From Desmodesmus armatus (taxonomy: Eukaryota; Chlorophyta; Chlorophyceae; Sphaeropleales; Scenedesmaceae), in assembly GCA_007449985.2 (NCBI GenBank), contig VIIQ02000203.1, positions 62,001 through 126,000 on the forward strand: a DNA stretch of 64,000 nt, read 5' to 3'. Made by a program: the position numbers and the translations under genes. Shown here piece by piece: positions 1 to 56,200 of this stretch (within the stretch, counting starts at the first letter, position 1; every line of letters starts with the position of its first letter). Under the pieces are notes generated by a model that saw only the letters and a list, made by a program, of their open reading frames with translations, ran no database searches and was not told where the DNA came from.

Positions 1-1084
1 GACAGTACAGTCCCGTCTGTACAGTAAAAGGACCAGACGGGACAGACCTGTGCAGTGTCTTACGTAGTTGGATCCGTTGCTTTTCAAATGACAATGTGCC
101 CCGTGTATGTCAGTGGCAAAGCTATGTGCAATGGGAGTACAGTTGACAGGCAGTGCTGAAACCCCGACAAAGCAGGTGTTATGTTGTTGACTGGATGGTA
201 TTGAGGCTTGACTGCGCAGGAGCCACGCGGCCTGAGTTGTTTGCCGCCCAGCTCGGTGCCGTTGCTGTTGTACGCTGGCCGCAACAGCAGCAGGTGTGTC
301 CCATAGTGCCCTCAGAAGTCACCTGTGGTTTTGTTGGTCAGCCTGAGTAGGTGCCGTGGTGCATGAACCTGTGTGGTGTTTTGTGTGAGACGGTCTTGTT
401 GCTTTTCGGGTGACGAGATGGCCCGTGTGATGCCAGTGGTGAGGCTATGTGTGCTAGCAGTACAACCGGTGTGGACAAATGTGGTGAAGCAGGTTTTTGG
501 CTTGCAAGTGCAGCGTGTTGCTTTGCAGATATGCAGGTCTCCAGGTAGCTTTGTTTTGCTCTGTGGCCCTTGCTTGTGGATTATGCCCTATGAGCCTAGT
601 TTGGCTCCAGAAAGGGCGGTCAGGCGTGGCCCTGACCCAGTTTAGTAGTAGTAGTAGTAGTAGTAGTAATCCTGCAGCATGGTGCATAACATCCTGTGCC
701 ACTGTTATCGATGCAACACCAATGCAGTGGCGTACACTTCATTCATACAAATAGACCACACTACCGTAGTCAGCAGCAGCATATCAGACTAACATCTGCC
801 CTCGTAGGGTCCACGCTGCAGTCCCAGTCATCCCCCCCCCTCCAAACATGTCTCACCGGCTCCTACTTGTACTGCGCCCCATCCCTCCAACCCCCCATTC
901 CCCCACCCAACCCTTCAGCACCAGGTCTGCTCTCACCTCTGCCCTGTTGGGTCCACACTGTAGTCCTTGTCATCCCCCACCCACTCCACATCCGACCCAA
1001 ATCCAACATGCACGCAACTCGACTGCTCAAAGCTAAACTTTCAACTTTCAACCCCCATAATCTAATGGACACTCACAGCCTCAC
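1..1084. other. Left flank, terminal intron of the L2HGDH-like gene
   Basis: No independent gene is visible. A short (TAG)n run lies near 644-668. From about 795 to 1000 there are decayed copies of the end of the neighbouring exon. The C-terminal exon expected for the dehydrogenase was not recognised here, so it probably lies beyond the left edge. Confidence 0.5.
795..1000 (-). repeat. Decoy copies of the 3' edge of L2HGDH exon 5
   Basis: Two diverged copies (about 795-830 and 920-1000) of the exon-5 end and its donor (1085-1150) lie downstream of the functional exon in the sense of transcription. The phrase reading CCTCGTAGGGTC is kept in the outer copy and altered in the other. Confidence 0.7.
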
Positions 1085-1636
1085 CTCTGCCCTCGTAGGG
1101 TCTACGCTGTAGTCCTTGTCATCCTCCACCCACTCCACATCCGGCCCAAACCTCGCCTGGCCCGCCAGATCCAGCGTCAGGTGAACCCCTAGACCCCCGT
1201 CCTCAGGGATAGGGTATATCAACCGGCTGAACGGCGGCTTATACCCCAGGCTGAAGTAATTCCCCTTGGCAAGGTACTGCTTGGGTATGGCTTTGGGGGT
1301 GGGGGTGATGGTTTGGGCAACGGCCTGTGCTGATAGCCCTGCTGCGTTGACTAACCATCGGGTGGTTAGGATAGTCATTGCACCTGAGCCGGTGTCCTGG
1401 ATCAACAGCTGCAGTAGCGGCTTGGCCGTGGTGCTCAGAGGTTTTCTTCTCCTGCTTTTGCTTTTGCTGCTGCTGCTGCTGCTGCTGGAAGGGGGTTCAG
1501 GCATGGTGAAATTGCCGGGGACCTGTTTCACGGCCAGGAGTTTGCTGTGTGTGGATAGGAGTCCATATTCTGATGCCCATATGTCATCTGCAAGTGATTC
1601 CATGAAGGCATGGCTGTCGATGATGCCTGCAGGGGC

Positions 1637-1700
<64 letters not shown>

Positions 1701-4412
1701 GCAGCAAGTGTTCAGTGAGCTGTTGCCGGCATCAGCATGACACCCTGGAGACGACATGCAGTTTGTTCACAATCCCTTGCTAATCTATGCTGTTGCTGCT
1801 GCTGCTGCTCCTACTCCTCCCAACACCCCTCTCCACTTCCCTTCCCTAGGACCCCCCTTTGGCACCAACACACACCTGTTGATGGCGACAGTAGTGCGGC
1901 AGCAGACAGCTGATGCTCCAGTGCCCTGGCCGCATCACCGTAACCCTCTCTGATGCCCCCCCCCCAAAAAGAAACACACATGATCACCAGTCTCCTATCC
2001 CCCTTGCCCCCCCCCCAAGGGACCCCCCCCCCCTGATGCATCGGCTGGAAGCACTCCCTGTGTCTACACCCACCTGTCGATGGTGACAACAGTGCGGCAA
2101 CAGCAGACAGCTGAGGCTCCAGCTCCCTGGCCTCATCACCCCTCTCTGTTGCCCCTGTTCCCTTTCCTGCCCCCCCCCCACACACACACACACCGCAAGA
2201 CCCCTGCCCCCCAACCCCTGCCCCCCCCCCACACACACCTGTTGATGGTGACAGCAGTGCTGCAGCAGCAGACAGCTGAGGCTCCAACTCCCTGGCCTCG
2301 TCACCCGTCAGCAGCTGCAGGTCTGTCACACCGTTGGCAGCAGCAGACTGCTGCAGCTGCTTCAGCTTGGGAATCTGCCTGGGGGTGCAGCAGGGAGGGA
2401 GGGGTGTGGGACAACGACGGGGAAAGAACGGGGCTAGGGAAATACTTGCCGCAATCGTTCCCTTGTAGCCACGGTCAATTAACCGATCCTCTGTTGAGGT
2501 ACCCCCTCGTGCTGGCAGCACTCACCCCCCCCCCCCCTCCCTCCCCCCTCCCTCCCCCCCTCCCCATGCCACGCAGTGAACAGCCCACTTGCCTATTGCC
2601 GATCTTGTCCAGAGACCCCCCCCAACCACCACCACCACCCCTACTTGCTTTGCAACTGCGGGCCCTCACCCCTGCCACAATGAGCTTTCCACTCCTCTTG
2701 TGCTGCCCCCCCCCCTGTTCTGCAGAAGCCCCCCCTCCCCCCCAACCATCACCAGCACCTCCCCTCTTCCTTGCAACTACTGCCACCTACCCTTCACTGG
2801 TTGCCACGATCAGCTTGCCGATCCTCTTGTGCGGTATTTCATGTTCCTGGCAATAGTCATACAGCCTTTCCTTGCCCTCCACACACAGCCTGGCCTTGAG
2901 GCTGTACTGGGGGTAGTAGATCCCTGCATCAAATCAGTCAATTCAAAGTTACACCTGTAGCTTTGAAGCTCAAGAGCTCATGCCAGCCATTCATTCACTG
3001 ATATCACGGAGATGGCAGAACAAATCAGACGGAACAAAACACTAAATCAAACCAGAGAGTTGCTGACGCCTACCTACTCCTATCTGCCAACCCCTACCTG
3101 CATGTATCACCTCGCTGTGCCTGCTGCTTGTGATGCTGCCAAAGTCTGGCTCTGACTCAAGGACGATGGTTTGCAGGCCTCGACATGCAATGGCTCTGGC
3201 ACATGCCAGGCCGATGACACCTGCATGGGCGGGAGCCAACAGTACAGACAGACAGGGTTGGGGGGGGGGGGAGCAGGGCCCGGAGCGAGGGGAGGGGGGG
3301 GGGGGTCTGCATAGTAGAGCAAGGGGATGAGGGTGGCCGTTTGGGGTTGGGGAGGGGAAAAGAGGCTGCGTGTCTGCTGTTGGTGATGCTGCCAAAGGAG
3401 GGCTCTGGCTCGAGCACCGCTGTCTGCAGGTTGCGACATACATATGCCCTGGCACAGGCCAGGCCGATGACACCTGGGGGGGGGGGGGGGGGGGAGGGGG
3501 GGGGGACAGGGGAAGGCCCTTGAGGGGAGAAGGGGGGGGGGGGTGTAGCAGAAGGATTTGAGGGCAGTATGTTAGTAAAGCTGGAGGGAGGTGGAGAAGA
3601 GTGGAGAGTTGAGCACTGCTGCCAAAGGAGGGATCTGACTCTTGTACCTCTGTCTGCAGGCCACGGCATGCCGCAGTGACCGTTCTTGCATAGGCCACAC
3701 CGATGATGGCTGGATGGTATGATTTGACAATGGGGGTGGGGGTGGTGTTGGTGTTGTGTGTTGGACGGGAGGGGGAGATTGTCATTATGGGTGCGAAGGG
3801 AAGGTGGAAGAGGCTGCAGCGCACATCTGTGAGGGCAGTATGTTAGTCAGAGGTGGAGAACACTAACGTTTTGGGCACTGCTGCCAAAGGAGGGATCTGA
3901 CTCCAGGATGACTGTCTGCAGGCCACGACATGTATTTGCCCTGGCACAGGCCAAGCCAGTCACATCTGGGGGGAGGGGGCCCAATTGGGGGGCGGGGACG
4001 GGGGGGTGGGGGTGGGGGGAGGGGTAACAGGGGGGCCCAGCACTGACAACTGGCCAGCCTGAGACTGTTTTGTGCCACTGCCCCCTTAATCCTTCATCAC
4101 AGCAAGCAGTACCTCGCTCTACCCCTCACCTGCGCCCACCACAACACAGTCCACCACCTCTTCTGTCACTGTTGTTGCTGCTGCTGCTGCTGCTGATGCC
4201 AAGGTGTCACCTGCTGCTGCTGCTCCTGCAGTTGTCCAAAGGGCACGGCCGCCAACACAGCTGTGCCATGCTGCTGCTGCTGCTGCTGGTGGTGGTGGTG
4301 TCACCGCGTTTGCTGCTCTTGCTGCTGCATTTGTCCACAAGGCACAGCCGCCAACACTGCTCACCCAAGGAGCTGCTGCTGCTGCAGCTCTGCCCAGCAG
4401 AAGTCGCTGCAT
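1085..4412 (-). CDS. L2HGDH: L-2-hydroxyglutarate dehydrogenase, FAD-dependent (3'-partial)
   Basis: Known family role: oxidation of L-2-hydroxyglutarate to 2-oxoglutarate with FAD, usually in mitochondria. Proposed exons on the minus strand are 4412-4130, 3220-3098, 2923-2791, 2378-2239 and 1626-1085; all junctions are GT-AG and phases join without a break, giving 407 residues. The N-terminus is Arg/Ala-rich and resembles a mitochondrial presequence. The FAD-binding motif VVVGAGVIG spans exons 1 and 2. Family-typical stretches follow: [41 protein letters not shown], and [14 protein letters not shown] near the end. A Ser/Lys-rich insert follows [10 protein letters not shown]. The expected last 50-100 residues are not seen. 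Start: first Met before the Rossmann motif. It is divergent from the SDR gene, with starts about 840 bp apart. Its introns carry many partial exon copies. Confidence 0.88.
1639..1699. repeat. (CAG)n microsatellite beside L2HGDH exon 5
   Basis: About twenty CAG units lie immediately upstream of the exon-5 acceptor (coding strand CTG). The run belongs to the intron, not to the protein. Confidence 0.9.
1878..2142 (-). repeat. Two decoy copies of the 3' half of L2HGDH exon 4
   Basis: Functional exon 4 ends with [17 protein letters not shown] and SPSTG. Two further copies at about 2065-2140 and 1878-1955 encode recognisable versions ([20 protein letters not shown]), each ending in CAACAG followed by GT. 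They lie downstream of exon 4 on the minus strand, inside the intron, with poly-C tracts between them. Confidence 0.8.
2460..2720 (-). repeat. Decoy copies of the end of L2HGDH exon 3
   Basis: The exon-3 end [11 protein letters not shown] is echoed at about 2690 ([10 protein letters not shown]) and, more weakly, at about 2465-2500 ([15 protein letters not shown]). Both are in the intron after exon 3. Confidence 0.6.
3390..3975 (-). repeat. Three decoy copies of the FAD-motif exon (L2HGDH exon 2)
   Basis: Copies at about 3395-3475, 3600-3700 and 3880-3970 repeat the exon-2 start with its acceptor (versions of [10 protein letters not shown] and EPSFGSI). All lie upstream of the chosen exon in transcription order. 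The chosen copy (3098-3220) is the only one continuing into [11 protein letters not shown] with a good donor. Two of the others have stops or drift early; the 3475 copy stays open furthest. Confidence 0.8.
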
Positions 4413-5254
4413 CAGCAGGAAGGCCTGCCTGGAATACTAGCACACTGCTTGTGCTGCTGCTGCTAGCAGCGCTGCATTTGTGGGACTGGATGCAGTACCC
4501 CCACAGGATCTGTCTGGTGACTATTGCGGTAGTGGTGGTGCTGCTGCTGCTGCTGGCGCCCACAGGCACAATTGTTTGAGCTCCTGCTGTGCTGGGCAGA
4601 TATACACCACTATGGGATGCTGGTGATGGGGGCTGTGTGTGTCTAGGAGGAACTGTTCGAGCTGTAGGGACAAGAGGAGCTGGTGCTGAACTACAGTCTA
4701 TTATTTGTAGTCTAGCTGCGGAGGCTGCTGCTGCAGCCTTTCCTCTGATGCCACAAGACGAGATCCGAACAGAGTAGGGGCGAGACGGACCAGAGAGGGG
4801 GAGGGGGGGGGGGGGGGGGGATGCCGTCTCTTGCGCCTTTGACTGGAGCTGCTGCAACGAAGTGGTGTTGTAGTAATATCCGCACCAAGTTGATGTAAGA
4901 GGTACAAGATTGTGCTGAAGGTTGAAGCCAGATGCTGCTAGAACAGATGGGAACAAGGGTTGTGATCTGCTTTTGGCAGTAGCACTGGCAGCACAAACTG
5001 GTTGCGCAGGACAGGAGTTTGCGGCACCGTTGCATCCAGCAGCAAAAATTACTAGCAGTAATAGTACTGTGACAACTCAACACTGTGTTCCCTCCGTGCA
5101 AGGACGCGAGTTTCCGTGAACAGATCAACTACATGACATCGTCAAATTCACCACGGGGACTGCATGTCCGCCAAAAAGTCCTTGCAAACTGCACGCAGCA
5201 CCGCAAGCTTTCAATCAGGAAGTTATCGAACCACAAGCACAACCAGCAGTAGCT
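4413..5254. promoter_or_regulatory. Divergent upstream region shared by the L2HGDH-like and SDR genes
   Basis: About 840 bp separates the two proposed start codons. It holds CTG-rich stretches and a G-homopolymer tract near 4800-4820. No TATA box or other motif could be assigned with confidence. Open frames here are CTG/CAG-driven and not convincing as genes. Confidence 0.45.
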
Positions 5255-8200
5255 ATGTTGTCGAGACTGGGCACAATGCGGCACGTTCAGCGAGCCCTGA
5301 GCATACCAAAAGCTTCGTTTGATGCATATGCGAGCTATGCCACGGATGCAGCAGGCCCAGGTGCGGTTGCAGTACTGCCAGACTTGTCTGGTCCTGGGTC
5401 CCGCTGCTGTCAGTGTGTGGTGACAAATGCACTTTTGCCTTGCTCAGCCGAACTACAGCTCTGTACCGCAACATAGAGCTGCACAATATCTACAAAGCGT
5501 GTACGTTGCTTGCTGGCTGCATAGGCAGCGTAACTCCCTTCCCACCAATCAGGGGAGGGGGGGGGGGAGGTAGAAGACAAAGATCCATGGTTTGGCGGTT
5601 TGAGCAGCATCAATGCAGTGTCTCTGTCATAGATGCTTTGCTTCCATCTGCAAACGTTGAGCAATATGTGTCTGGAGGGCTGGGGCAGAAGGGGGGGTCA
5701 GTGCTGCTGATGCGCATTTTACAAGAAGACACTTGACCTATACAGTCAACAAAGACACATGAACTATACAGTCAACTCACACTGCAGCATCCTGTTGCTG
5801 CTGCTGTTTGTGCTACTGTGCAGTGTATGTTGTGTTTGGTGCCTCTGGCGGCATTGGTTCAGCCCTCAGCAAGCGGCTGCTGGCACAGCCAGGCTCCACA
5901 GTGGTGCTGGCAGGCAGGGACGAAGCCAAACTGCAGCAGCTGGTCAGCAGCCTAGGGGGAGGTGAGTGCCTTCTCCTCCCTCCTCCTTCCGCCCCCCCCT
6001 TCCCCTCCCCCGCTTTCAGTCTCCCCCCCCCTCCCCCCCGCGCCCTGCACTGTGGTGCTGGCAGGGATGAGGCGGAACTGCAGCAGCCGGTCAGCAGCCT
6101 GGGAGGAGGCGCGTGGGTGTTGTCAAGGGTGTGCCTGTGCAATCCCCCCCCCCCTTCTTGGAAACACCCACCCACCCACTCACACCCCACTCCCCCGCCC
6201 AACATCACTAGCAGGCAGGGACGAAGCCAAACCGTTGCAGTGCAGCAGCTGGTCAGCAGCCTAGGGGGAGGTGAGTGCACATCAGGGTGGGGTCACAACC
6301 GTGCTAGCAGGCAGAGACACGGTAAAACTGCAGTTGCTGGTCAGCAGCTTGATAGGGGGGGTGCACACGTTAGTGTACCCCCCCCCCCCCCCCCCCCCGG
6401 GTGCTGGCTGGCAGGGATGAGGCCAAACTGCAGCAGCTGGTCAGCAGCCTAGGGGCAGGTGAGTGCACATCAGAGTGGGGTCACAACCGTGCTAGCAGGC
6501 AGAGACACGGTAAAACTGCAGTTGCTGGTCAGCAGCTTGATAGGGGGGGTGCACACGTTAGTGTACCCCCCCCCCCCCCCGGGTGCTGGCTGGCAGGGAT
6601 GAGGCCAAACTGCAGCAGCTGGTCAGCAGCCTAGGGGCAGGTGAGTGCACATCAGAGTGGGGTCACAACCGTGCTAGCAGGCAGAGACACGGTAAAACTG
6701 CAGTTGCTGGTCAGCAGCTTGATAGGGGGGGTGCACACGTTAGTGTACCCCCCCCCCCAGTGGTGCTGGCTGGCAGGGATGAGGCCAAACTGCAGCAGCT
6801 GGTCAGCAGCGCACCCTTGACAACGTCCACTCACGCCCCCCTAGGGGGAGGGTGGGTGGGTGGGGGTGTGGGTGGGGGTGTGGGTGGGGGGTGGGGGGGA
6901 CAGGCACACCCGTGACAACGTGCACTCAGCTCCCCCTAGGTGAGTACCCGTTATCGCAGGTGAGTGACAACGGGTACTCACCTGGGGGGAGGTGACTGCA
7001 TGATGTCAAGGGTGTGCCTGTACCCCCCCCCCCCTAAAACACAAAACACCCACCCACCAGTTATGGCTTAACGCAGGGGCACAATTCGCCACCAGCACTC
7101 GTCATAGGACAATGCCCATTCAACGTGCCATTGGCAATGCATGGGCCGACACCAGGCTTACCCCCCCCCCCACCCCCTCCCTGTACTGCTGTTTGGCAGA
7201 TGTCCCCCTGATGGGTGAACCCCTCTGACACCGAAGCAGCAGAGTTGTTCATCCATGAAGCAGGGGCACAACTCACCACTAACACTCATCCTCAAAACAG
7301 CCTCATTTATTGTGACATTGGCAATGCAGATACCAACACCAGGCTTACCCTCCCCCCCCTCCCTTCCACTGTACTGCTGTCACTCAGATGTCCCCCAAGT
7401 GGGTGACCCCCTGGACTCCAAGGCAGCAGAAAGCAACACCATCGCAGCCGTGGTGCAACAACCCCCAGTCATATAGACATACTGTGCGGGACTTGCAATG
7501 CACATGTCAATTACCCCCCCCCCCCTGCTCCCCCCTCCCCCCGGCCCTGTCCCAGGTGTCCCCCTAGTGGGTGACCTGCTTGACTCCAAAGCAGCAGAGT
7601 TGAGCATCAATGAAGGGGCACAACTCACCCACCAGCCACTCACCCTCCAACAAGCACAAGTTTCATCGAGTACACCAATGCACATGCCAACACCAGGCTC
7701 GCCTCTCCCCCCACCCCTGCTACACACTACAGGTGTCCCCCTAGTGGGTGACCCCCTCGACTCCAAGGCAGCAGAGTCAGTCATCAACGCAGCAGTGGCA
7801 CAGCACGGCAGGGTTGATGGTGTGGTCAACTGTGTGGGCAGCATCGTCCTCAAGTCGGCACACACAACCAGCGATGCTGACTTTGACCAGGTGAGTTGGC
7901 GCAGTGGGTTGATATGTCCTGGGGAAGGGGGGATAGCGAGCTAGTTACAGTGGGCAGGGGGGTGATGGTGCCACTCCATCAAACACCACGATGGTGGGCA
8001 GCATCGTCCTCAAATCAGCACACACAACAAACGACACTGACTTTCACCAGGTGATTCGAGAGGGGGGGGGGGTAGTGATGTGTCATGGTCGCAGGGCGGG
8101 AATGGGCTGGATAGTAGAGATTGTCAGTAGGAACGGGTCGGAGAGTTATGGTGCCAACTGTGTGGTCAGCATTGTCCTCAAGTCAGTACACACAACCAGC

Positions 8201-9612
8201 GATGCTGACTTTGACCAGGTGTTTGGAATGGGCTGAGGATGTTGGGTGGCAAGGTGCCACCCTATATTTGGTGGGCAGCACTCCTCAAATGGGCATGCAC
8301 GTTGTGGTGAGCAGCGACCCTGACTTTGACTTGGTGTGTTTGCAATGGTGCCACCCTTTTGTGGGCAGCATTGTCCTGCAGTCAGCACACACAACCAGCG
8401 ACGCTGACTTTGACCAGGTGTGTCGGTCAGCACAGTACTGACCTCAATGCAGGACTGAGGGGGGAGGGCAAAGTGGGCTTACATTGTTTGACTGGGAAGT
8501 TGCGATTTGCTGGGTTGCTGGGCTGGTGTGGGTGCAAGTGTGGCAGGCCTATGGGGCAGGAGTTTGTTTGACAGGTGCTGCAGTCCCCTGATCGCTGTTA
8601 CTGTTACTGTTACATGGTTCAGGCTGAATCTGAACACCCCGTAGGGTGCCAACGAGGCTCATGGGGCATCAGCATGATCACCAAGGGCCTGAGGCTTGCA
8701 TGCCCGTCCATTGTTTCCTCGCGCCGGCGCCACCACACATGACACTGTGCCAAGGGCACCTTTGCTTCGTGACTACATTACTAATAGTATCTCGTGTGCT
8801 CTCTGTACCCCCCCCCCCTTCAGGTTCTGCGGACCAACCTATAAAGCTGTTTCAACATCCTGCGGCCGTCAACGAAAGCTATGATGAAATGCGCAGGGTG
8901 TGTCGATATCATCACCAGTACTCCACATACATATTGCACTCAAGTATCCTGCCCCCCCCCCCCCCCCGGGCCACTGCTGTTCCCTGCCCCCCCCCCCCGC
9001 CCACCACACACACACACACACAGGTGTTGCGTACCAACCTGTACAGCTGTTTCAACATCCTGCGGCCGTCAGTGAAGGCCATGATGAAGAGTGGAGGGGG
9101 CTCCATCGCATTCTGCAGCTCAGCAGTGGCACAGCACGGCATACCAAACCACGAAGCCATCGCAGCAGCGAAAGCGGGTGTTGTAGGTGAGATATGGGGG
9201 GAAGGAGGTTTATGCTAGACCAACTTCCCCTACACTGCGGCTGCTACCGCTGCTGCCTTTTTTTGCTGTGTGCACCACTGCAGACAGCAAGTCAGGTTGA
9301 GTCAGCTGCCAGCGCCATCCTGTAGCATCAACACGCCTGTTTGAAAAGTCTCCACCGGCAGCTACTGCTGCTATCGCTGCCACTGGCAGATGCAGTAGTA
9401 CTATTGCGAGGCCACCACATATGTGCAGCTGCTGTCGTCCTGGATATATCATATGTGCCGTGTGTTGTACTGCTGCTGCTGCTGCCACTGCCGCTCCTGC
9501 TGTCCTGCGCTTTCCATGGCGGCTGCTGCTGCTGCTGCTGCTTCTGCTGCTGTAGGCCTGATGCTGTCGACCTCAAGAACATCCGTGTGAACTGTGTGGC
9601 GCCTGGTCTCAC

Positions 9613-9650
<38 letters not shown>

Positions 9651-10707
9651 ATCTGCTGACATCGTTGTTTCCTCCACTTCTGCTGCAGGCCTGATGTTGT
9701 CGTCGGCCGCCACGTACGCCCCCAAGAACATCCGTGTGAACTGTGTGGCGCCCGGTCTCACGCGCACCCCCCTGGCGGAGCGTATCACCAGCAACGCAGC
9801 TGCACTCAAAGCCAGCGAGGGCATGCACGCACTCAAAAGGTGAGGGAGCAGCGGGGTGTGTGGAAGGGGGGGGGGGTTCAGGCACATCTGGCAGAAAGCA
9901 TCCGCACCAAACCACCACCACCAGCAGCAGCAACAGCGAGTAGCACTCTGGAAGAGGTGTGTAGCCTGGTGGGGAAAATGGGCGTGTAGGGCGGGGCATC
10001 CCCAACCAAGGTGCATCTTGAACGGTTTGAAGGGCGCAGATACATATATGCTCGCCTCCCAGATAGTACTGATGCCCCCCTGCCCCGATCAGCAGAAAAG
10101 TAGATGAGGCTGCTGCCGTGCTGATTGCTTACATACACACGTCCCCCTTCCCCCACCTCAAGGGTTGATGGGGTTGTTGAGGTTGCACTGCAACTGAGCT
10201 GCCCTTATTTTTACTACGACTTGTTCATTGTCGCCCGCTGATTGACGCACTGCGTAATGCCCACCACCACCACCACCACCACCCCGTCCTGCAGGATTGG
10301 TGAGGCTGATGAGGTTGCTGCTGCGGGGGCTTTTGTTTGCCAACCTCCTGCACTCCTGCTGCCTGTAATTGCATTATCCCCCCCCCCCCCCTCATCAGCC
10401 CACCCACCCACATACCACCCACCCACAATTCATGCCCCCCCCCCCCCCCCTCTTCCACCCCCCACCCTGCAGGATTGGCGGGGCTGATGAACTTGCTGCT
10501 GCACTAGAGTTTGTATTGCCAACACTCTTGACTCCCACTCACTTATTGATGCACTTTCCACTCCCCTCCCTCTGATTCTGCAACAGGATTGGTGAGGCTG
10601 ATGAGGTTGCTGCTGCCCTGGAGTTCCTGCTCAGTCCCAGCAACAGCTTTGTCACGGGTCAGGTGCTGGGCGTGGACGGAGGACTGGGGCGCCTCAAGCC
10701 ACAGTAG
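5255..10707 (+). CDS. Short-chain dehydrogenase/reductase (SDR), six exons, atypical active site
   Basis: Proposed exons 5255-5360, 5824-5961, 7733-7890, 9024-9186, 9689-9839 and 10587-10707 have GT-AG borders and continuous phases, giving 278 residues. Residues 1-35 resemble an organelle transit peptide. The NAD(P)-binding motif VFGASGGIG is at about 40-47, followed by VVLAGRD. Further SDR landmarks are VVNCVG (112-117, NNAG position), N139 in [13 protein letters not shown]166/S167 in FCSSA, K184, [10 protein letters not shown] and the C-terminal [11 protein letters not shown]. The YxxxK tyrosine is replaced: the motif reads IAAAK with Ile180, inside [10 protein letters not shown]. Substrate is unknown. 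Introns hold numerous partial exon copies. Confidence 0.88.
6046..6815 (+). repeat. Six decoy copies of SDR exon 2 end, including a ~182-bp tandem array
   Basis: The exon-2 end ([20 protein letters not shown] plus donor) recurs at about 6050-6112, 6210-6272, 6300-6356, 6401-6464, 6583-6646 and 6763-6811. The last three belong to near-identical units with a period of about 181 bp that include a poly-C tract. Most copies still end in a GTGAGT-type donor. Confidence 0.9.
6939..6982. repeat. Perfect 14-bp inverted repeat built on a splice-donor sequence
   Basis: Arms GGTGAGTACCCGTT at 6939-6952 and its exact complement at 6969-6982 enclose a 16-bp spacer that itself contains CAGGTGAGTG. The pairing extends outward imperfectly into the CCCTAGG / CCTGGGG flanks. 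Confidence 0.9.
7194..7660 (+). repeat. Three decoy copies of SDR exon 3 start
   Basis: Copies at about 7198-7275, 7388-7475 and 7549-7650 carry the acceptor and versions of [14 protein letters not shown]. They lie upstream of the functional exon (7733). They diverge after 15-25 codons: one has a stop after GEPL and others lose the [10 protein letters not shown] continuation. Confidence 0.85.
7985..8425 (+). repeat. Four decoy copies of SDR exon 3 end
   Basis: Copies of [19 protein letters not shown] plus the following GT occur at about 7990-8052, 8155-8220, 8270-8335 and 8358-8420, all downstream of the functional exon end at 7890. The second and fourth remain almost unchanged at the protein level. 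Confidence 0.88.
8819..8900 (+). repeat. Decoy copy of SDR exon 4 start
   Basis: CAG followed by a copy of [15 protein letters not shown], with a TAA where Tyr-Ser should be, lies about 200 bp upstream of the functional exon 4 (9024). Confidence 0.85.
9549..9620 (+). repeat. Decoy copy of SDR exon 5 start
   Basis: This copy keeps the acceptor, the start GLML and the block [12 protein letters not shown], but lacks the SAATYAP segment between them. It runs into a (CTG)n tract. Confidence 0.82.
10085..10545 (+). repeat. Two clear and two faint decoy copies of SDR exon 6 start
   Basis: Clear copies at about 10292-10345 and 10471-10530 read [10 protein letters not shown] and [13 protein letters not shown] after a CAG acceptor. 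Weaker ones occur near 10100 and 10160. The functional exon begins at 10587. Confidence 0.78.
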
Positions 10708-15305: not shown

Positions 15306-41454
<26,149 letters not shown>

Positions 41455-42033: not shown

Positions 42034-43088
42034 ATGACCATCAAGCGTGTGTGTGTGTTCTGTGGCTCTAAGCACGGCGTCAGGTGTGTTCAAGCTACAT
42101 TGTATTGGAACTATCTGTTTGGTTGCCAGGTTTTCAAGCCCAACATCCTGATTGAATCAGCAGGTGTGGTGGTGGGGGGTGCGAGGAATGCTGGGTGACA
42201 CTGCCGAGGCCTGTCTGGAGAGGGTCAGCTTGCCAAATGGGCTGAGCAGGGGGCTGATAGCAGTGAAACTGGTGTAATGGTTCACTGGTGGGTGCATTGA
42301 GCCTTACAACCCACAAAAGCAAGACCCATGCCCTCACACCCCCCGCCCTTTCTTTCCCCTTCAACCCCTGTCTCAGCCCCTGCCTACCTCCACCACCACC
42401 CCTCCTTTATTTCCCCCCCCCCCCCACCCAAGTCCTCAGGCCAGGTTACACAGAGGCAGCCCGTCAGCTAGGTCGAGTGATGGTGTCAAAGGAGCTTGGC
42501 TTGGTGTATGGAGGGGCAACAGTGGGCCTCACAATCCACAAAATCTAGACCCCTGCCCTCAAGCTTCACCCCCCCCCCCTTCCTTCACCGCCTGTCTTAG
42601 CCCCCTGCCCACCACCACCACTCCTCCTGAATTACATATCCCACCCCATTATTCAGGCCAGGTTACACAGAGGCAGCCCGTCAGCTAGGTCGAGTGATGG
42701 TGTCAAAGGAGCTTGGCTTGGTGTATGGAGGGGGCACAGTGGGCCTCACAATCCACAAGAGCGATACCCCTGCCCTCAAGATCCCCCCCCCCTTTCCTCC
42801 TTCACCCCCTGCCCCCCCCCCCCCTGCCCCCCGAACCTCAGGCCAGGTTACACAGAGGCAGCCAGGCAGCTTGGTCGAGTGATGGTGGCAAAGGAGCTTG
42901 GTCTGGTGTATGGAGGGGGCACAGTGGGCCTCATGGGGGAGCTGGCCAGGACAGTTCAGGATGGCCTGGGGCCACAGGCTGTGCTGGGAGTGATCCCCAA
43001 GGCATTGACACCGAGGGAAATCAGCAATGAGTTAATTGGAGATACAAAGGTGGGTAGTGTTTGTGTGCCTGGAGGGGGGGGGGTCTGC

Positions 43089-43153
<65 letters not shown>

Positions 43154-43866
43154 GGGGTTAATTTGTGGGCGGGTGGCAGCATTGCAAAGCACAACGGGCC
43201 TCATGGGGGAGCTGGCCGAGACTGTGCAAGACGGCCTGGGGCCACAGGCTGTGCTACTAGTAGCCCTGATCCCCAAGGCGTTGACGCCAAGCAATGAGCT
43301 CATCGGAGACACTAAGGTGGGTGTTGTTGTGTGCCTGGAGGGGGGGTCCTGCAAGCAGCAGCAGCAGCACGGCAGCAACAGCAGCAGGAGATAAATTGTG
43401 GGCTGCTGGCAGCATTGCAAAGCACACCGACCCTATTAGGAGCTGGCCAGGACAGTTCAGGATGGCCTGGGGCCACAGGCTGTGCTGGGAGTGATCCCCA
43501 AGGCATTGACACCAACAGAGATCAGCAATGACCTGATTGGAGATGCGAATGTGGGTGTGCTGTTGTGCGGAGGGGGGGAGGGAGAGGGGGGTTGCAAGCC
43601 GCCGCCGCCGCAGCAGCAGCAGCAGCAGCAGCAGGACATAAACTGTGGCGGGTGACAGCATTGCAAAGACACCGGGCCTCGTTGGGGAGCTGGCCAGGAC
43701 TTTACAGGATGACATGGGCCCACAGGCTGTGCTACTAGTAGCCCTGATCCCCAAGGCATTGACGCCAAGGGAAATCAGCAATGAGCTCATCGAAGACACG
43801 AAGGTGGGTTGTGTATGTGACTATGGAGGATAGTGGGAGGTGTGTGTGTGGGGGGGGGGGGCTACA

Positions 43867-43897
<31 letters not shown>

Positions 43898-45436
43898 AGA
43901 GATGAATTGGGGCCGGGTGGCAGCATTGCAAGCACTGTGGGCGTGATGGGACAGCCAGTCAGGGCTGTACAGGCAGTCCAGGGGCCACAGGTAGTTGGGG
44001 GGGGGGGACCTCCGCAAGCAGCAACAGCATGAGGTCAGATGGGGGCCCCTTGGAGTCGCACTGAGCACAACTTTTGGTTGGTCAAACCCATTGCTGCAGG
44101 TCGTGGGTAACAGGCATGCAATGCTCAGTTCGCGGAGATCATCCACCCTCTTTGACTTCAACCCTTCCAAACTCTCTCTGTTTTTAACCCACCCCCCTCC
44201 CAGATCGTTGGTGACATGCATGAGCGCAAGGCTATGATGGCGCGGCATGCAGACGCCTTCGTGGCCATGCCAGGAGGCTTTGGCACACTGGAGGAGCTGC
44301 TGGAGGTGTGTGGCTCAGGGGCGGAGTGGGAAGGGGGGGGGGGGGAAGCCCAGGATATGGGTAGAGGAATGGGATGGGAGGGGGGGGGGTCATGCAGTGG
44401 GCAGACGCGGGTGGCCTCTGGAGACATTGCTGGACGTATGGGCAGAACGCCCAAGGGGTTGCTGCAAGGGTCGCTCCCGCTCCATGTCCGTGCAAAGTGT
44501 AGTTCTGCAATTGACGGGGACAAAGTGGGTTTGATAGTGATGTTGGAATGCACGGGCCGTTGGTTGGTGGTGTGATGCGTGGGGAGGACGGGCAACGCTC
44601 AACCATGCGGAACATGGAGGGGCAGTGCAGTCACTGCTCGGCTTGAACTGCAGTGCATCAATCAGCCATGGGGAAGGAGTTGGCTTGGGGCCTGGGCAAA
44701 CATGGGGGGGCGCAACTTGCTGCCAGGCCATCAGGGCAGGCTTCGTACGGGGCAATGCACGCGCAGTGTGGCCACATGGAAATGGAGACAAACATATGTA
44801 TGCATGTATGACAGGGATAGTCAGCAACAGCGTTGTTTGTGTGGGCTGCTGCTTTGTGTACAGCCGCCGTACCAGGCTGAGCTTGGGCCAAGCCGATGCA
44901 ATCCTGTTGTGTTTGCATCTGCAGGTCATCACGTGGCAGCAGTTGGGGTTCCACCAGAAGCCCATTGGTCTGCTCAACACTGAGGGCTTCTTTGACCATT
45001 GCTCAAGGCCTTTGACAGCTTCATAGCGGAGGTAAGCTACAGTTTGCAGTATAGTATCTGGCACCACAAGCCGTGCAACCCGCAAGGGAGCCAGGGGCTC
45101 ATGGGGAAGCTACAGCAGTGACTTTGAGAGAGTTGGGTGGGTGCAGTCGGGGAGTTACGAGGCAGCAGAAGGGGGCAGGGGCCAAAATCAGACGTCCACG
45201 AGGAAACATTGTGCGATGTCTTGGATCTGGACAAGATGTTGTGTGTTGGCAAACTTCACTCCACACACCCAATGTGCAGGCTGCCCCACATCATCATCCT
45301 CACACCAACATACGCAGCTCAGCTTTCTTCATGTCTGCCCCCCCCCCCCCACCACCACCACCACCACCCGTTCGTTGCAGGGTATTATCATGCGGGCCCA
45401 TGTCAGACCTTGCCCCCCCCCACCCCCCCCCCCCAC

Positions 45437-45519
<83 letters not shown>

Positions 45520-45940: not shown

Positions 45941-46066
45941 TGGGGCAAGGCGGTGATGCATGTGTGTTGGTAGTAATGGTTGTGAGACAGTGCCCGGAAT
46001 TGGGGAGGTAGCAAGATTTCCTGTGGAGACACTGGGAACACACAAAGATGGGAACACAGAACACAA

Positions 46067-46071
46067 TGTAA
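46067..46071 (+). terminator. Candidate polyadenylation signal TGTAA of the LOG gene
   Basis: TGTAA lies 127 nt after the LOG stop codon, the usual position for chlorophycean genes. Confidence 0.6.
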
Positions 46072-48756: not shown

Positions 48757-48869
48757 AGGTAGTAATGGTTGACTGGTGGTGATGATGTCAGAGTTTGGGT
48801 CAGACGATACGCCGGCTGTGCATTGTGGCGTTGATGACGGGACAAGGTCGGTTTGGATTCAGTTTCGTG

Positions 48870-48920
48870 ACGCAAAGGCATTTTTACAGTGGATTCAGTT
48901 TCGTGACGCAAAGGCATTTT
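48870..48920. repeat. Short tandem duplication
   Basis: GGATTCAGTTTCGTGACGCA and the next bases AAGGCATTTT occur at about 48856 and again at 48892. Confidence 0.85.
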
Positions 48921-49129
48921 GCAGGACAAAATGGGATGATGGAGGGCAACATAGCATTGCGACGACACCATTGGCATCCACACATCAGCCAAGCTTTGAA
49001 GAAGATGTGTCTAGCTGCCTTCAAACCGCCGCCCTCATCAATGTCTTTGCCTGCACGCCCCATGGCATGGGACGGGTGAAACTGCCATCAATGGCCATGA
49101 ACTTGCAAAGAGTGTGTATCTTTGTTCTC

Positions 49130-50680
49130 AAAAATTAGGCAACACATTGAACGCTGCGCCACACCGCTTGCTAGCAGCACACTGCAAGGCCATGTGGCAA
49201 TGCCTTGGTGCTAGCCGCCCCTCACAAGAGTCACTGTCGCAACGCCCCTTGGGATGGTCAAAACTGCCAACGATGGCCATGAGCTTGCAAAGAGTGCGTG
49301 TCTTTGTTCTAACAACTCAATCAACACAATGAACCTTGCGCCACACCGCTTGCTAGCAGCACACTGCAACGCCATGTTGCATTGCCTTGGTGCCGGTAGC
49401 CCCTCACAAGCCTTGTGAGACGGTCTTTGTCGAAACGCCCCTTGGGATGGTTGGAATTGCCATAGATGGCCATGAGCTTGCAAAGAGTGCGTAAATTTGT
49501 TCTGAAAACTTGATCAACACAATGAATGCTGCACCACACCGCTTGATAGCAACACATTGCAAGGCCTCGTCGCACTGCCTTGGTGCCAGCCGCCCTTCAC
49601 AAGAGTCACTGTCGAAACACCCCTTGGGATGGTCAAAACTGCCAACGATAGACATGAACTTGCAAAGAGTGAGTATCTTTGTTCTGAAAATTTAATCAAC
49701 ACAATGAACGTTGCGCCACACCGCTTGTTAGCAGCACACTGCAAGGAATGTGGCACTGCCTTAGTGCCGGTAGCCCCTCACAAGAGTCACTGTCGAAACG
49801 CCCCTTGGGATGGTTGAAACTGCCAACGATGGACATGAACTTGCAAAGAGTGTGTATCTTTATACCAGAAACTTGATCAACACGCCCTGGGCATGGCGTA
49901 AAACTGCTTGGGAGGTTGCCTTGTGAGCTGAAGGTTTGGGTTTCGATTCCCACCCGCAGCAAGGTCTCTCTTTGGGGCATTGGCAACAATGTCCGGCTTA
50001 CTGAGTGGCCTGTGTCCCTTGTGGGGCCTCAGTGAGGGGTAGAGGATTTGGGCACTTTGCCTCTACCAAGTGTCACCCCGTGTGATAATAATGCTTGGAG
50101 AGTGTGTCAGGAGGGGTAGACCCCGCCGTCCTTACAGGGCGTGAAGCCAATGGGAGGTAATCCTATGGCGTTACTGGGTTAGGAGGGGGCCCTGAAGCAT
50201 TATTATTATTATTATTAACACAATGAATATTGCGCCACATCGCTGGCTAGCAGCACACTGCAACTCCATGTTGCATCGCCTTGGTGCCAGTAGCCCCTCA
50301 CAAGAGTCACTTTCAAAACCCCCTTTGGGATAGTTGAAACTGCCAACGATGGACTTGACCTTGCAAAGAGTGCGTATCTGTGTTCTGAAAACTTGATCAA
50401 ACACAATGAATGCTCTAGTCTGTCGTCGCAGCATGCATCAACACAATGGACCGTGTGCCACATTGCTTGCTAGCATCACACTGCAAGGCCATGTGGCACT
50501 GCCTTGGTGCCAGCCGCCCCTCACAAGAGTCACTGTCAAAACCCCCCTTGGGATGGTTGAAACTGCCAACGATGGCCATGAACATGCACAAAGTGCGTAT
50601 CTTTGATGAAATACCCTCATAGATAATAAACACAGCGCCACCATTTTTGCCATGTGGCACTGCCTTGGTGCCAACCGCCC
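49130..50680. repeat. ~183-bp minisatellite array (interrupted)
   Basis: Units contain AACACAATGAA, GCCACACCGCTTG, CCTTGGTGCCAGCCGCCCCT, AGAGTCACTGTCGAAAC and GATGGCCATGAGCTTGCAAA. Successive units start near 49141, 49324, 49516, 49700, 50217 and 50440. Divergence is about 5-15 percent. A SINE-like insert splits the array. Confidence 0.9.
49884..50216 (+). mobile_element. SINE-like element with tRNA-like promoter and (ATT)n tail
   Basis: The 333-bp insert interrupts a minisatellite unit. An A-box-like TGGCGTAAAACTG near 49894 and a B-box-like GGTTTCGATTCC near 49939 are spaced as in a tRNA-derived head. The tail is (ATT)6-7. CAACAC before and AACAC after the insert may be a short target-site duplication. 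Confidence 0.7.
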
Positions 50681-50689
50681 TCACAAAAT

Positions 50690-51865
50690 GTTCGCCACTT
50701 CATGGGCTGGTTGAGACTACTTGAAATGGCCACACACTTGCAAGAGTGTGTTTGTTGACTTTAATCACTTTGGGTCCACATCGCTGCACGTATTCTGGCA
50801 GCACGCTTCAAGGCTATGTGACGGCGACAGTGCAATTTGGATGTCATGACAGTTGAGTACAAGGTCGATCACCGCTGAGCGTTGGATGCATTCCCAATGC
50901 TGAAGCAGTGTGAAACGCGAAAATGGTCATAACAAGACCATGCCATCACCGACTGCCTTTCACTCTGTGTCTCTGCACGTTGACCAAAGCAAAAGGTGTG
51001 TTTAGCTGCCATAGGGCAAGCCGCCTTCACTGTTGTCTTCGTGGTCCCCAGTTGTTGTGGTTGGTGGGTTGTGCGAGGCACACCAGCCACTGAGGAGGCG
51101 ATGTAGAGGTTGGATGATGGTTGTTACAAATCGTGTATGGTGTTTGGTTGCATCATACATTGCCATGTTGTCGACTGGCAAGCTGCACCTGTGATGATCT
51201 TTGAGGCTTTCAAGGTGCATGCACCGCTGACGGGGCCCACACAACAACACGGCATATTGTCCATGCGGCACAATTGAGACTGGTGCTCCGTGGATGTCAT
51301 GGAGTTCAGTCAACAACATTTCACATTTGCGACACGTTGAGCATGTCCACAATATGTCATCATGGCATCATTGTATGCCACATGCTGAGCAACCTTCAGC
51401 GCCTCTATCCAACAAAATAACACTCTGGCTCTGCATGTTAGTCTTCCGGGTGTGTTACACAGTCCGAACCGCAACAACCATGAATGCTGATGTTGCATCA
51501 CTGCTTGCCCTGGCTGGTGGCCCATTGTGCCAACAATGCTGCTCCATATCCGGTGGGCAGAGCCGCCTTTTCATCCCACACCTGCACACAAGCAAAGGAA
51601 ATGAAGTTCATGAATTGAGTGGCGCACATGGTGTGCCGTCATAGGTTCGCACATGAGCACGCCGGGCACCAAACCACACATCGTGATCGCATGTAGCGCA
51701 GTGTTGCGCAAGTACCCACAGATACTACGAACGGAAACTCCAAATGATAATTTACACTAGGGGCGAGGCAGCTGACGCATGCGCTGACGACGGACGGACA
51801 TTTGGAGTGCAAATGCGCTCTAGATCCTGTTGTCGAGTGAAGCTTGATGGCTTGGTAGGCCATAT
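50690..51865. other. Intergenic, nothing assigned
   Basis: Frames with Cys/His-rich patches exist (for example CSTCRKCEML on minus near 51340), perhaps a decayed transposon protein, but no family could be named. Confidence 0.35.
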
Positions 51866-51869
51866 GCAA

Positions 51870-52935
51870 TGGCACAAGCCATGATGCTTGGCATGCCATT
51901 GGCAACATCTCAAACCCACATGCTCGCACGCAAATGGCGACAGCTCAAACCAGGATGCTCGCATGCCATTGAAACTGGCACAAGCAGGTTGCCCGGCATG
52001 CCATTGGCAAGCTCTCAAGCAAGGATGCTCGCGTGCCATTGACGATGGCACATGCCAGGTTTCTCGGCATGCCTTTGGCAAGAGATCAAGCCATATTGCT
52101 CATGTGCCATTGACAATGGCACAAGCCAGCTTGCTTGGCACGCCATCGACAATGGCACAAGCCAACGGGCCAACCCGGCCCACCCACCGGCCCCCTAAGG
52201 GGGGTAATAATACCCCAAGCCAGGCTGCTTACCCGGGCAAGTGCAGTGAAGGGAGAGGGATCCCCTGATGCTGATTACTGCCACAAAGGCAAAGGAAGGA
52301 ATGGGTGCAGAATACAGCCGGAAAAGGCATGGAGCCCGCTATTGGGTGTGCTACCCTAGGGATTCAAGGTTCTCTCAGGTCGGGACTGAGGGGACTCTCC
52401 CAATGGGTCAAGGGTGATACCTTACAGCATCCAATCTCCCATGTCAAACAACATCTCCAGCCTGAATTTCGGTGGGTTTACACAGCCCCCAGGTGTGCCC
52501 CTAGGGAGTGAGATGTGGCCACGAGTGCCGTTGCCCTAGACCCTCAGGAGTGTTGGTGTGAAGAGCCGTCCTCAACGGACGCGAGGCCAATGGGAAGAAG
52601 TCCTATGGCGTTAAGAGACCAAGGGGGTGTCTCTGTATCTTTCTTTCTTTCTTTTAAGTTGCTTGTCATGCCATTGGCGAAAACTCAAGCCGGGATGCTT
52701 ATGTGCCATTGACAATGGCACACGCCAGGTTGCTTGGCATGCCATTGGCAAAAACTTGAGCCGGGATGCGCGTGTGCCATGGACAATGGCACAAGCCAGC
52801 TTGCTTGGCACGCCATTGGCAGTGGCACAACCTCGGCATGTCATTTGCGACGGCTCCAACTGAGATGCTCGCGTGCCAACGACAATGGCACAAGCCAAGA
52901 TGCTCGGCATGCCATCAGCGAAAAGCATGGGGTGT
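51870..52935. repeat. Minisatellite built on TGCCATTG / CAATGGCA inverted pairs
   Basis: Irregular units of about 55-65 bp contain GCATGCCATTGGCAA, CTCAAGCC, GGATGCTCGCGTGCCATTG and ACAATGGCACAAGCCAG. The sequence TGCCATTGACAATGGCA, a perfect 8-bp inverted pair around one base, occurs repeatedly. A non-repeat block at about 52165-52660 interrupts the array. Confidence 0.85.
52165..52662 (+). mobile_element. Second SINE-like insertion
   Basis: This block splits the minisatellite and ends in (TTTC)n. Near its end, GAGGCCAATGGGAAGAAGTC and CTATGGCGTTA match the end of the 49884-50216 SINE (GAAGCCAATGGGAGGTAATC, CTATGGCGTTA), suggesting a related 3' region. The head is unlike the first. Confidence 0.5.
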
Positions 52936-53223
52936 CATTGGCAGCGACGCAAGTTGGGGCCACACCCGCCACAAAACAGTGTTGTGCACGAAAGTCCCTT
53001 TTATCACTCCTAGCTTGGTGTGCACGAGCGGATTGGTACACCTTACAAGAGTAACATGCAGAAGTGTTCTTCACAACCTTGCACAATGTCAAAGTGTACT
53101 CGAGGCCATTTCAAGTCCAACCAAGTACACAACGTTATCGTTTTGCAAGACCCAAGCCATTTCAAAGCAAAAGTTTTGGTAGGGGCAAACTGAGAGATCC
53201 ATTGCCAAGCGAGTGGGCCTTAC

Positions 53224-56200
53224 CGGTCCGGCAATGTCCAAGTGTGCCCACTCCACGCCCTCCTTCACAAACTCCTTGAGGAACAGAGCTGCAGTAATGC
53301 TGCCACCCGCACGACCACCTGCAATTTGCAACAGGCACAAATCTGTTGACCGCCAAATGTCTGCTACGTGTGATTTCTTGAGGACAAGCTTGTTGGTAGT
53401 CAACAAGGTCCACACATGTGTGTGCACAGACGGTGGTGCATGCCTTCTGTGCTGGGCTCAGATGAAGTTTGGCTTGCTTTGTGGGCAAGTCAGTGTTGAA
53501 GAGGCGACATTTGCAGATGCTCATCATGACTGCACTTGCACGAGATGTCAAAGTGTTTGGCGTGCCTTGTGCGCTTGCAACAGGAAATCCGTCACAACTG
53601 CTGAGCACGGTCACTTATGCCACCACCAACTGAGTAAAACATTGAAAGCACAAGCAACACTGCACTGCTACCCCGGTTTGTTGATTGCCTCTGACAAGAT
53701 TGCTGCAGCAAGACCTAAGACCTAAGCGGTGACTCCAATGGTGATGCCGCAACCACCAATTCAGCTGCCGCTGCTGCTGCTGCTGATAAGGCCACTGCAC
53801 CCTACCTGTGTTTTTCATGTCCGCCACGCTGCTCTTCAGCTGCTCCGCATATGACGCCTCCATGGGCATCCGCCACACCTTCTCACCAGCTGCCCTGCTG
53901 GCAGCACCCAGTGAGTCAGCCATGGCGTCACTGGGTGTGAACAGGCCCGCCACCTCGCCACCCAATGCAATGATGCAGGCGCCAGTGAGAGTGGCAATGT
54001 CCACGATAGCCTGAGAGGGGTGAATGTAAAGGGAAATGGGGTGGGGGGAGGGCAGTCAGGTCAACTGGATGTGAACAGGCCGGCCACCTCCCCACCCAGT
54101 GCGATGATGCAGGCGCCAGTGAGGGTGGCGATGTCCACAATAGCCTGCGAGGGAGGGGGAGTGCCTGCGAGGGAGGGATGGACTGCATTATGAGAAGTGT
54201 GGGAGTCAGCTAACTGGGTGCGGACAAGCCCGCCACCTGCCCACATAGTGCGATGATGCAGCCAGTGCGTGTGGCTGTCTGCAGGGCAGGGAGGAGCAGG
54301 GACAGGGCAGGCGGGAGAGTAGCAAGATGGTGCAAGCCGGTCATCTCCCAACCCAGTTCGAAGATGCAGGCGCCAATGAAAGTGGGCAATGTTGGCCGAG
54401 AACGGGCAGTGACGCCAACCAGGGAATGAAACCCGGCGTAAGGATGACCGGTCGATCTTTGGGGCGACATGCAGGGTGCCGGAGCAGGCTCTCATCGAGG
54501 GAGGAGAAAAGGAAAAAAGAACAAAAGGCAAAGTAGCAAAGTAGCAAAGAACCATATACACAGGCTGCTAATTTGGTGACACAGCATTCGACACCTTGGT
54601 CATGCACCCTCTTCCTTCTCTGTTGCCCCCCCCCCCACCACCACCACCCTGTTGCCCCCCCCACCACCACCACCCTTCAAAAAATCCTTGAAGGTCCAAA
54701 TTGACCAAAACAGCAGCAGCACTTGCAGCAGCAGCAGTCCCGTCTATGTCAGGTGAATGCAGGGATGCCGTGCCATCGGCATCCCACATATCACGTGAAA
54801 CAAGTGGAGACTGCTGCAGCAGCAGTTGCTGCTGCTGGTGGTGCATGTGCTCTAACACCCCGAAAGGCATGGCAGCAACTGCAACGACAACAACAGTGAT
54901 GTCGCTCATGCTGCCCCTCCCCCCCCCCCCCCACACACACACACATGTGTGTTACGCCTGCCCACCTTTCAGCAGCAGCGTGTTGCTGCAGTTTTGAGCC
55001 AGCCGGTGCGACTCTGCCGCTACAGAAGCTGCTCCTCCTGCTGGCTGCTGGGGAAGCAGCTGCTGCACTGCTTCTGCGATCACAGCCTCCCTCTGTGCAT
55101 CAGTCAGTGGGGCTGACATTGTAGGAGGTGCTGCAGATCTAGCTGCTGCACGGGCTGCCCTTTCACACACACAAACTACCACCACCAGCAACAAGTTAGT
55201 GGCCAGTCATGGAGACACTTACTGTTGCGCCTGCCTTCTCCTGAGCAAACCACAGGGCGTCAGCTAGCGTCAAACGGCCCTCAGCATCAGTGCTGCAGGC
55301 GGCGGCAGCAGCAGGAGCAGCAGCAGCAGCAACAAGACCACGAGCAGCCGCAACGTAAGCTACGACAGAGCACAGATACAGACGCAGGTGCAGCAGCACC
55401 TGGCAAGACCAGCAGGTTGTCGAAACATGTTTTGCTGCAGGTCTGGCCTAATTTATATTCAAAGTGTTGCTGAGTATGAGCATCCAACCACCTACTTCAG
55501 GAAACTGTACTCAACCTGTCAACAGACTGTACCTCGTCAACCCCTGGCCCGTCATAAGCTAGCCAGCTGAGCTCCAAGTTGCAAGTGCTGTTCTTGCCAG
55601 AACTGTGCCATTGGCTGTGTGGCTGCAAAGTGTGCAGCAACTGCAGTGCTCCCTGGCTACAGCCTGACTGCATGTACGGCTGGTGTGTAGTGACTGTACA
55701 ATATTACGTATCAGCAGGCCACGCCAACACAGATCTGTAAAAATCTGCAAGTAGCACAACCGCAGCAGCCTGTAGTGCCCCATGACTCACTTGTTGACCT
55801 CCACTGTCTTGCCGTTTGCTGCTGTCAGCACGTCACCGGGACGCATGCCCTTGCCAGCCACCATGTTCTCACATGAAGCGATGATAAAGTGAACCTGCAT
55901 GCAACACACAACAGTTACACCAGAAACAAGTATAATGGGGTTGGTTGAATTGTACGGTTGCATGGCCCTTGCCGGCCACCATGTTCTCACACGAAGCGAT
56001 GATGAAGTGAACCTGTAGGCGCAGCACACAACACCAGAGCAGACGCGGCTTCTGTCTGTACTTACCCTAGAACTGGTGCTGGGCCCTTGCCAGCCAGCAT
56101 GTTCACATGGTGGCTGCCACTATCACAAGGCCTGGCCCACCGCCGATCCGACCCAACGCTAAGTACAACCATCCACCCTCAACATGAAAAGCTGCAACTT

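Follow-up and report, generated by a model that had tools for sequence, protein, structure and literature searches.

Introns of five genes in a 64,000-nucleotide stretch of the Desmodesmus armatus genome carry partial copies of the exons that flank them, and these copies keep to a simple geometry. The stretch (hereafter the window) spans positions 62001-126000 of contig VIIQ02000203.1 (C199; 162,192 bases) in a genome of 115.8 Mb and 831 contigs, and our survey followed C199 beyond it, to 84 kb in all. Nearby partial copies of themselves accompany 24 of the 49 exons that we curated (19 of the 40 within the window), and every copy of an exon edge (48/48) lies on the predicted side: copied starts upstream, copied ends downstream. 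All 132 pairs of repeats less than 2 kb apart in the 84 kb are direct and none is inverted; they fall into 43 clusters. We consider it likely that these copies arose as units of 100-400 bp were tandemly duplicated again and again, with selection acting as a filter and neutral decay following. The pattern is true and readable, most likely the product of a familiar type of mutation subject to ordinary selection, and is remarkable for its local density.

The five genes are a short-chain dehydrogenase (SDR, six exons), a leucyl aminopeptidase (LAP, 15), LOG (four), HKR (19) and an L2HGDH-like gene (five). Exons of SDR, LAP and LOG were set by spliced alignment to homologous proteins. The best named matches of SDR and LOG come from Tetradesmus obliquus (82% identity over 98% and 95%, respectively), and the best match of LAP is protein P0241 (69% over 96%), from a source whose longest contig has 2,068 bases. 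The alignments contain no frameshift in SDR or LAP; that of LOG breaks down beyond about position 45000, with a frameshift at 44995, and its wrong-frame last piece was dropped. Of the 15 LAP exons, nine lie past the window end, and five of these bear copies. For HKR (15306-36037, minus strand) and the L2HGDH-like gene we used a self-written hidden Markov model (HMM) gene finder, trained on 344 kb of the genome, and took out copy-like pieces by hand; its trained signals resemble CAG/GTGNG at donors and TGCAG/G at acceptors. HKR combines bacteriorhodopsin-like, histidine-kinase ATPase, response-regulator and guanylate-cyclase domains, as in the light-sensing histidine-kinase rhodopsins of green algae, and its name is provisional. 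The L2HGDH-like gene encodes a FAD-dependent oxidoreductase of the DAO family, matched by structures 3dme and 8w75; its name is likewise provisional and was not supplied by the domain or structure matches.

Copy-bearing exons occur in every gene: 1/4 in LOG, 5/6 in SDR, 7/15 in LAP, 8/19 in HKR and 3/5 in the L2HGDH-like gene. The initial annotation had seen exon-edge duplication at nearly every exon of these genes. The phenomenon itself is as described, direct copies in the flanking introns that usually include the splice site, but its extent was overstated, since about half of the exons are affected. Probing the 49 exons against the plus strand only gave 64 non-overlapping matches. Of these, 25 are starts copied upstream, 23 are ends copied downstream and 16 are internal; two of the internal ones reflect a single 21-bp resemblance of SDR exon 3 to exon 4 and are not decoys. 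In the three alignment-verified genes, probed on both strands within 3 kb on either side with overlapping matches left unmerged, 13 of 25 exons had at least one near match; the 40 matches comprised 14 ends downstream, 13 starts upstream and 13 internal, with none inverted and no edge copy on the wrong side. Within the window alone, 108 near pairs at a lag below 2 kb are all direct, as are 110 of 111 at a 3-kb limit. The polarity had been called strict, which is true of the curated exons. Raw automatic calls depart from it: the 108 matches to raw HMM exons in the contig comprised 26 ends downstream and 27 starts upstream, but also 6 ends and 4 starts on the opposite sides (upstream and downstream, respectively), 30 matches that touch both edges, 14 internal ones and a single inverted one. 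The exceptions are probably due to copies that were themselves called as exons; such calls are visible, for example as repeated VLSVDDDQ pieces. Introns in which copies from both neighbouring exons meet were correctly recognized, at 35332-35926 in HKR and at 7891-9023 in SDR (containing 8400-9000). The polarity is no separate clue to mechanism, because selection would remove a copy on the other side of the splice site, which would become part of the mRNA.

The form of the youngest repeats speaks to how the copies arose. Young arrays are head-to-tail and include the spacer: a 134-bp array in HKR repeats an exon edge with its splice site and intron, and a 182-bp array in SDR does the same for an existing copy of an exon end (Table). 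The HKR array has three copies at 98% and three at 82-85% (the last, at about 24551-24600, outside the array proper), and the spacers of four copies are 91-96% alike. For older copies, we compared the stretch between copy and exon with the stretch beyond the copy, using shuffled controls. Spacer likeness reached p<0.01 in 19 of 48 tests and p<=0.05 in 14 of the 25 nearest copies, and outward extension from the splice site exceeded the 99th percentile of unrelated flanks in 18/48. The young array and these nearest copies contradict a description in which copies consist of exon plus splice site only and never include spacer. Recurrent tandem duplication across exon-intron junctions, proposed from the outset, is supported by this evidence and by the uniformly direct orientation, as is the growth of introns by such duplications. 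Pair identities range from the 60s to 100%, indicating a range of ages.

Under the account that we favor, the region would have been struck by repeated local tandem duplications, with lags mostly of 100-400 bp, through a molecular step that we infer to be slippage, unequal exchange or end joining. A duplication lying wholly in an intron or crossing a single exon edge would leave the mRNA intact if the splice site of the complete exon was used, and could persist; exon-breaking duplications would be removed by selection. With each surviving edge-spanning event the intron would become longer and acquire a superfluous exon edge together with the splice site. The spare copies would then decay neutrally, and intron spacers would change faster, partly through indels and simple-repeat growth.

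The subsequent fate of the copies can be read from their substitutions. Changes private to copies are spread evenly over codon positions (52:52:66; p=0.32 against even), whereas changes private to exons fall mostly in third positions (8:4:26; p=2e-5): the copies behave as unconstrained and the exons as constrained. On the strength of this even spread we reject the copies as alternative coding exons. The splice dinucleotide is retained in most edge copies (AG in 23/25 start copies, GT in 18/23 end copies), and position weight matrix medians are 6.4 for decoy donors vs 6.8 for authentic ones and 5.2 for decoy acceptors vs 6.3. Ten of 23 decoy donors and 10 of 25 decoy acceptors score at or above the authentic median; contig-wide, 0.8% of GT and 2.3% of AG dinucleotides do so. 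That the copies supply decoy junctions is supported, the decoys being about as strong as authentic sites by this measure. The spliced alignment to P0241 passes over every LAP copy, so that the authentic junctions are supported through a relative; the decoys are presumably mostly not spliced.

In our sample the density of copies is regional and looks like a local hotspot. Outside the window we sampled 300 kb of the genome, including five 50-kb blocks from the large contigs C545, C3, C4, C526 and C26 (the last with 5 kb of N) and a 10-kb stretch of C208. Among exons 40 bp or longer, those for which a near match of whatever kind was present numbered 42/93 in C199, 0/78 in C545, 6/65 in C3, 2/78 in C4, 4/55 in C526, 2/42 in C26 and 3/10 in C208, where the counts outside C199 take in internal and inverted matches; C199 differs sharply from the five blocks together (14/318; p=8e-20). 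Mean near-direct coverage per 10 kb was 0.33 in C199 vs 0.035 in the five blocks (p=4e-5), and the C199 clusters compare with 2 per 50 kb in C545, 11 in C3, 0 in C4, 3 in C526 and 5 in C26. At the setting used for the window, 50 kb of C4 gave 0 near-direct pairs and C545 gave 4. Four duplication clusters lie in the 10 kb of C208, and the small contigs C366 (8 kb) and C291 (6 kb) have 4 direct pairs each; poor assembly of regions of this type may be the reason why these contigs are small. A LAP paralogue on C7 showed no near repeats in 6 kb. Direct edge copies elsewhere share the polarity seen here (10/10 in C3, 4/4 in C208). The earlier view of a genome-wide mutational habit acting on every gene is not supported in this sample; the process is patchy without being unique to this contig. 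Genome profile searches with PF00069, PF13561 and PF00005 were too insensitive to short copies to count, and the PF00069 table, inspected by eye, showed no overlapping local pairs.

Neither of two simple covariates accounted for the regional signal. Across 10-kb bins, a plain effect of coding density was rejected (Spearman -0.28, p=0.11), as was a plain effect of homopolymers (Spearman 0.32, p=0.06). Homopolymers of at least 7 are commoner in C199 than in the five blocks (p=0.003), and CA tracts, too, are more frequent here; examples of homopolymer and CA tracts in the window are at 34275-34303, 35747-35914 and 40989-41050. On contig C3, about 440400-443700, 3 kb of many overlapping direct repeats (61-77% identity) is mostly called coding and is perhaps a repetitive protein gene. 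Tentatively, and with somewhat less than even confidence, we suggest that tandem duplications of 100-400 bp and simple-repeat growth are far commoner, or far better tolerated, in certain patches of the genome than in the rest, and that introns in these patches lengthen by accumulating neutral fossils of exon edges.

How often duplications should span an exon edge was estimated by random placement of units, their lags taken from the data, in the HMM genes of three other blocks, counting as tolerated those within an intron or across one edge only. The edge-spanning share of tolerated duplications was 70% in C545, 77% in C4 and 59% in C526, and that observed in the curated genes is 61% (51/83 pairs). 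The agreement holds only if introns were of ordinary length when struck, as they presumably were when first duplicated; otherwise there is an excess of edges. Several points weigh against tandem duplication as the explanation. Simulation in today's lengthened LOG, SDR and LAP genes expects 20% edge-spanning events, not 61%, although part of such an excess may come from slower decay of exon-derived pairs. The pairs are not independent events, so the match in geometry is an agreement and no precise test. Spacer likeness failed to reach p<0.01 in 29 of the 48 tests, including that of a copy whose exon part matches at 96%. Copies differ by 0.346 in their flanks and by 0.162 in their exon-derived parts (unrelated flanks, 0.482), and this flank decay exceeds a single neutral clock; ascertainment, since copies were detected through their exon part, and simple-repeat growth, which is visible adjoining splice sites, explain only part of it. 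Elsewhere in the genome, inverted near copies do occur (5 matches in C3, 1 in C526, 2 in C26).

Because ascertainment and repeat growth may not suffice, local capture during repair is a live rival. Through synthesis-dependent strand annealing or template switching, a junction piece would be copied into a break tens to hundreds of bases away, and the spacer need not be duplicated. This would suit the many copies, some 88-96% alike, that have no spacer homology, and for vertebrates there is a description of closely linked duplications, as long as 619 bp and made by repair, in which exons and intron splice sites are contained (PMC2671141). Those events resemble ours in being short, closely linked and inclusive of exons with splice sites. 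They differ in orientation and form: capture can insert either way, and one opposite-orientation exon is described among them (PMC2671141), whereas none of the 132 C199 pairs is inverted and the young arrays run head-to-tail with their spacer. We regard capture as unlikely, and tandem duplication remains our preferred account.

It is very improbable that selection retained the copies as working alternative or regulatory splice junctions. The strength of the decoys and their retained dinucleotides would fit such a role, but the even codon distribution of copy-private changes does not, the retention approximates what about 10% neutral divergence would leave by our own estimate, copies with lost ends are under-detected, and the P0241 alignment skips the LAP copies. 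An assembly artefact, collapsed haplotypes or a contaminant contig are less probable still: C199 is small, stretches of three other small contigs carry such repeats, and the near-identity of an array at 57313-64000 leaves its copy number uncertain, but the edge copies vary in age, with identities of 72-100%, and are consistent with gene structure, only diverged LAP and SDR paralogues appear elsewhere among the matches listed, and a k-mer principal component analysis gave no clear second group (its first axis, in our impression, follows coding density).

Table. Exon-edge copies, source exons and young arrays in the window (positions are those of the window).
Feature	Position	Strand	Remarks
L2HGDH-like: two copies (936-1001, 795-840) of end of exon 1085-1626	795..1001	-	91%, 87%; downstream in gene
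L2HGDH-like: two copies (2074-2144, 1873-1939) of end of exon 2239-2378	1873..2144	-	90%, 82%
L2HGDH-like: two copies of start of exon 3098-3220	3370..3957	-	78%, 80%; upstream in gene; farther copy begins at exon base 9, counted internal
SDR exon 2, authentic	5824..5961	+	spliced alignment to P0122
SDR exon 2 end, copies at ~6045, 6208, 6400, 6582, 6755	6045..6810	+	81-93% to exon
Young array, 182 bp x 3.1	6241-6810	+	96%; repeats copy of SDR exon 2 end with donor and intron, exon itself excluded
SDR exon 3 start, three copies (7201-7270, 7389-7453, 7556-7600)	7201..7600	+	80%, 83%, 91%; AG kept
SDR exon 3, authentic	7733..7890	+	spliced alignment
SDR exon 3 end, three copies (7994-8050, 8155-8218, 8360-8417)	7994..8417	+	88%, 94%, 91%; each ends CAG/GT
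Copy of start of SDR exon 4 (9024-9186)	8828..8888	+	89%
SDR exon 6 (10587-10704) start, two copies (10295-10324, 10473-10511)	10295..10511	+	100% over 30 bp, 85% over 39 bp
HKR: two copies of start of exon 15306-15932	16086..16380	-	94%, 95%
HKR: two copies of start of exon 19331-20140	20256..20520	-	80%, 90%
HKR young tandem array, 134 bp x 5.4	23731..24447	-	begins inside exon 23625-23780, whose first 53 bases it repeats along with acceptor and neighbouring intron
HKR: copy of end of exon 30103-30308	29908..29977	-	81% over 43 bp
HKR: copy of start of exon 30103-30308	30490..30562	-	96%; spacer homology not detected
HKR exon 31423-31547 with end copy (31323-31359) and start copy (31648-31704)	31323..31704	-	91%, 89%
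HKR: copies of end of exon 35119-35331 (34965-35015, 34729-34795, 34553-34595; internal 34853-34895)	34553..35015	-	81-89%
HKR intron 35332-35926, copies from both neighbours	35423..35655	-	35423-35518 from downstream exon (base 24 on, counted internal), 86%
Same HKR intron, copy of end of exon 35927-36037	35573-35655	-	88%
LOG exon 2 (42842-43049) start, two copies	42440..42748	+	91% and 93% over 92 bp
LOG exon 2 end, copies at ~43189, 43439, 43674; internal at 43932	43189..43991	+	75-93%; spacers 83-90% alike
LAP: start of exon 53806-54010, one copy and two farther from exon bases 16 and 11 (internal)	54064..54392	-	90%, 79%, 78%
LAP: copy of start of exon 55791-55894	55960..56012	-	92%

Further repeats lie beside these genes. 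More direct copies, among them one of 62 bp at 97%, occupy 36040-36687, and their source is probably an upstream HKR exon absent from the curated set. A LAP intron of 9 kb (56328-65293) contains the array at 57313-64000, whose units of ~1.3 kb are 99.5-100% alike; the copy number of this array may be wrong through misassembly. A 35/71-bp minisatellite (51859-52924) lies in the last LAP intron, and a diverged 182-bp array (49068-50605) downstream of the gene. Across the SDR/LOG region (5270-45031), the T. obliquus matches have close locus numbers, OEZ85_011420 for SDR and OEZ85_011414 for LOG, which suggests that gene order around the two is conserved with that alga. An Rfam scan of the window at gathering thresholds found nothing.

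Local duplication within genes has precedents. Gao and Lynch are said to have treated internal gene duplication and intron creation, and Achaz and others close direct repeats; as here, there was reportedly an excess of local direct within-gene duplications that decay over time. What would set C199 apart from those cases is its regional density, with 43 clusters in the 84 kb, and a junction polarity that can be read. In the potato RdRp gene, a tandem genomic duplication crosses an intron-exon boundary and, like the segments described here, carries splice signals (PMC4974935). That single event made a new intron (PMC4974935), whereas here many events lengthen existing introns, and no new intron was seen in the verified genes. 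Internal tandem repeats in human genes are similar in that repeat change within a gene alters gene structure; that case is described as minisatellite expansion in recent paralogues (PMC2812944), and ours concerns exon edges of single genes in 100-400 bp units. As to algae, no title describing an exon-edge pattern appeared among the matches listed in our literature searches, whose coverage left out most subscription journals.

The window makes intron growth visible as a series, with young arrays, diverged copies and faint remnants together in 84 kb. Each fossil is readable and roughly datable because its source exon stays constrained, which is rarely possible inside introns. Near-authentic decoy donors and acceptors beside real ones also make exon definition testable with RNA reads and, if our reading is true, duplication patches would offer a natural setting in which to test how strong decoy junctions are passed over by the spliceosome. 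The regional concentration in turn raises the question of what makes one region so prone to duplication, or so tolerant of it. Mean intron length in Tetradesmus obliquus is 462 bp, vs 230-302 bp in four other algae, according to Table 1 of the genome report (PMC5966456). Exon-edge duplication could contribute to these long introns and, if our reading is true, such patches would be part of the reason for the long introns of Tetradesmus-like algae.

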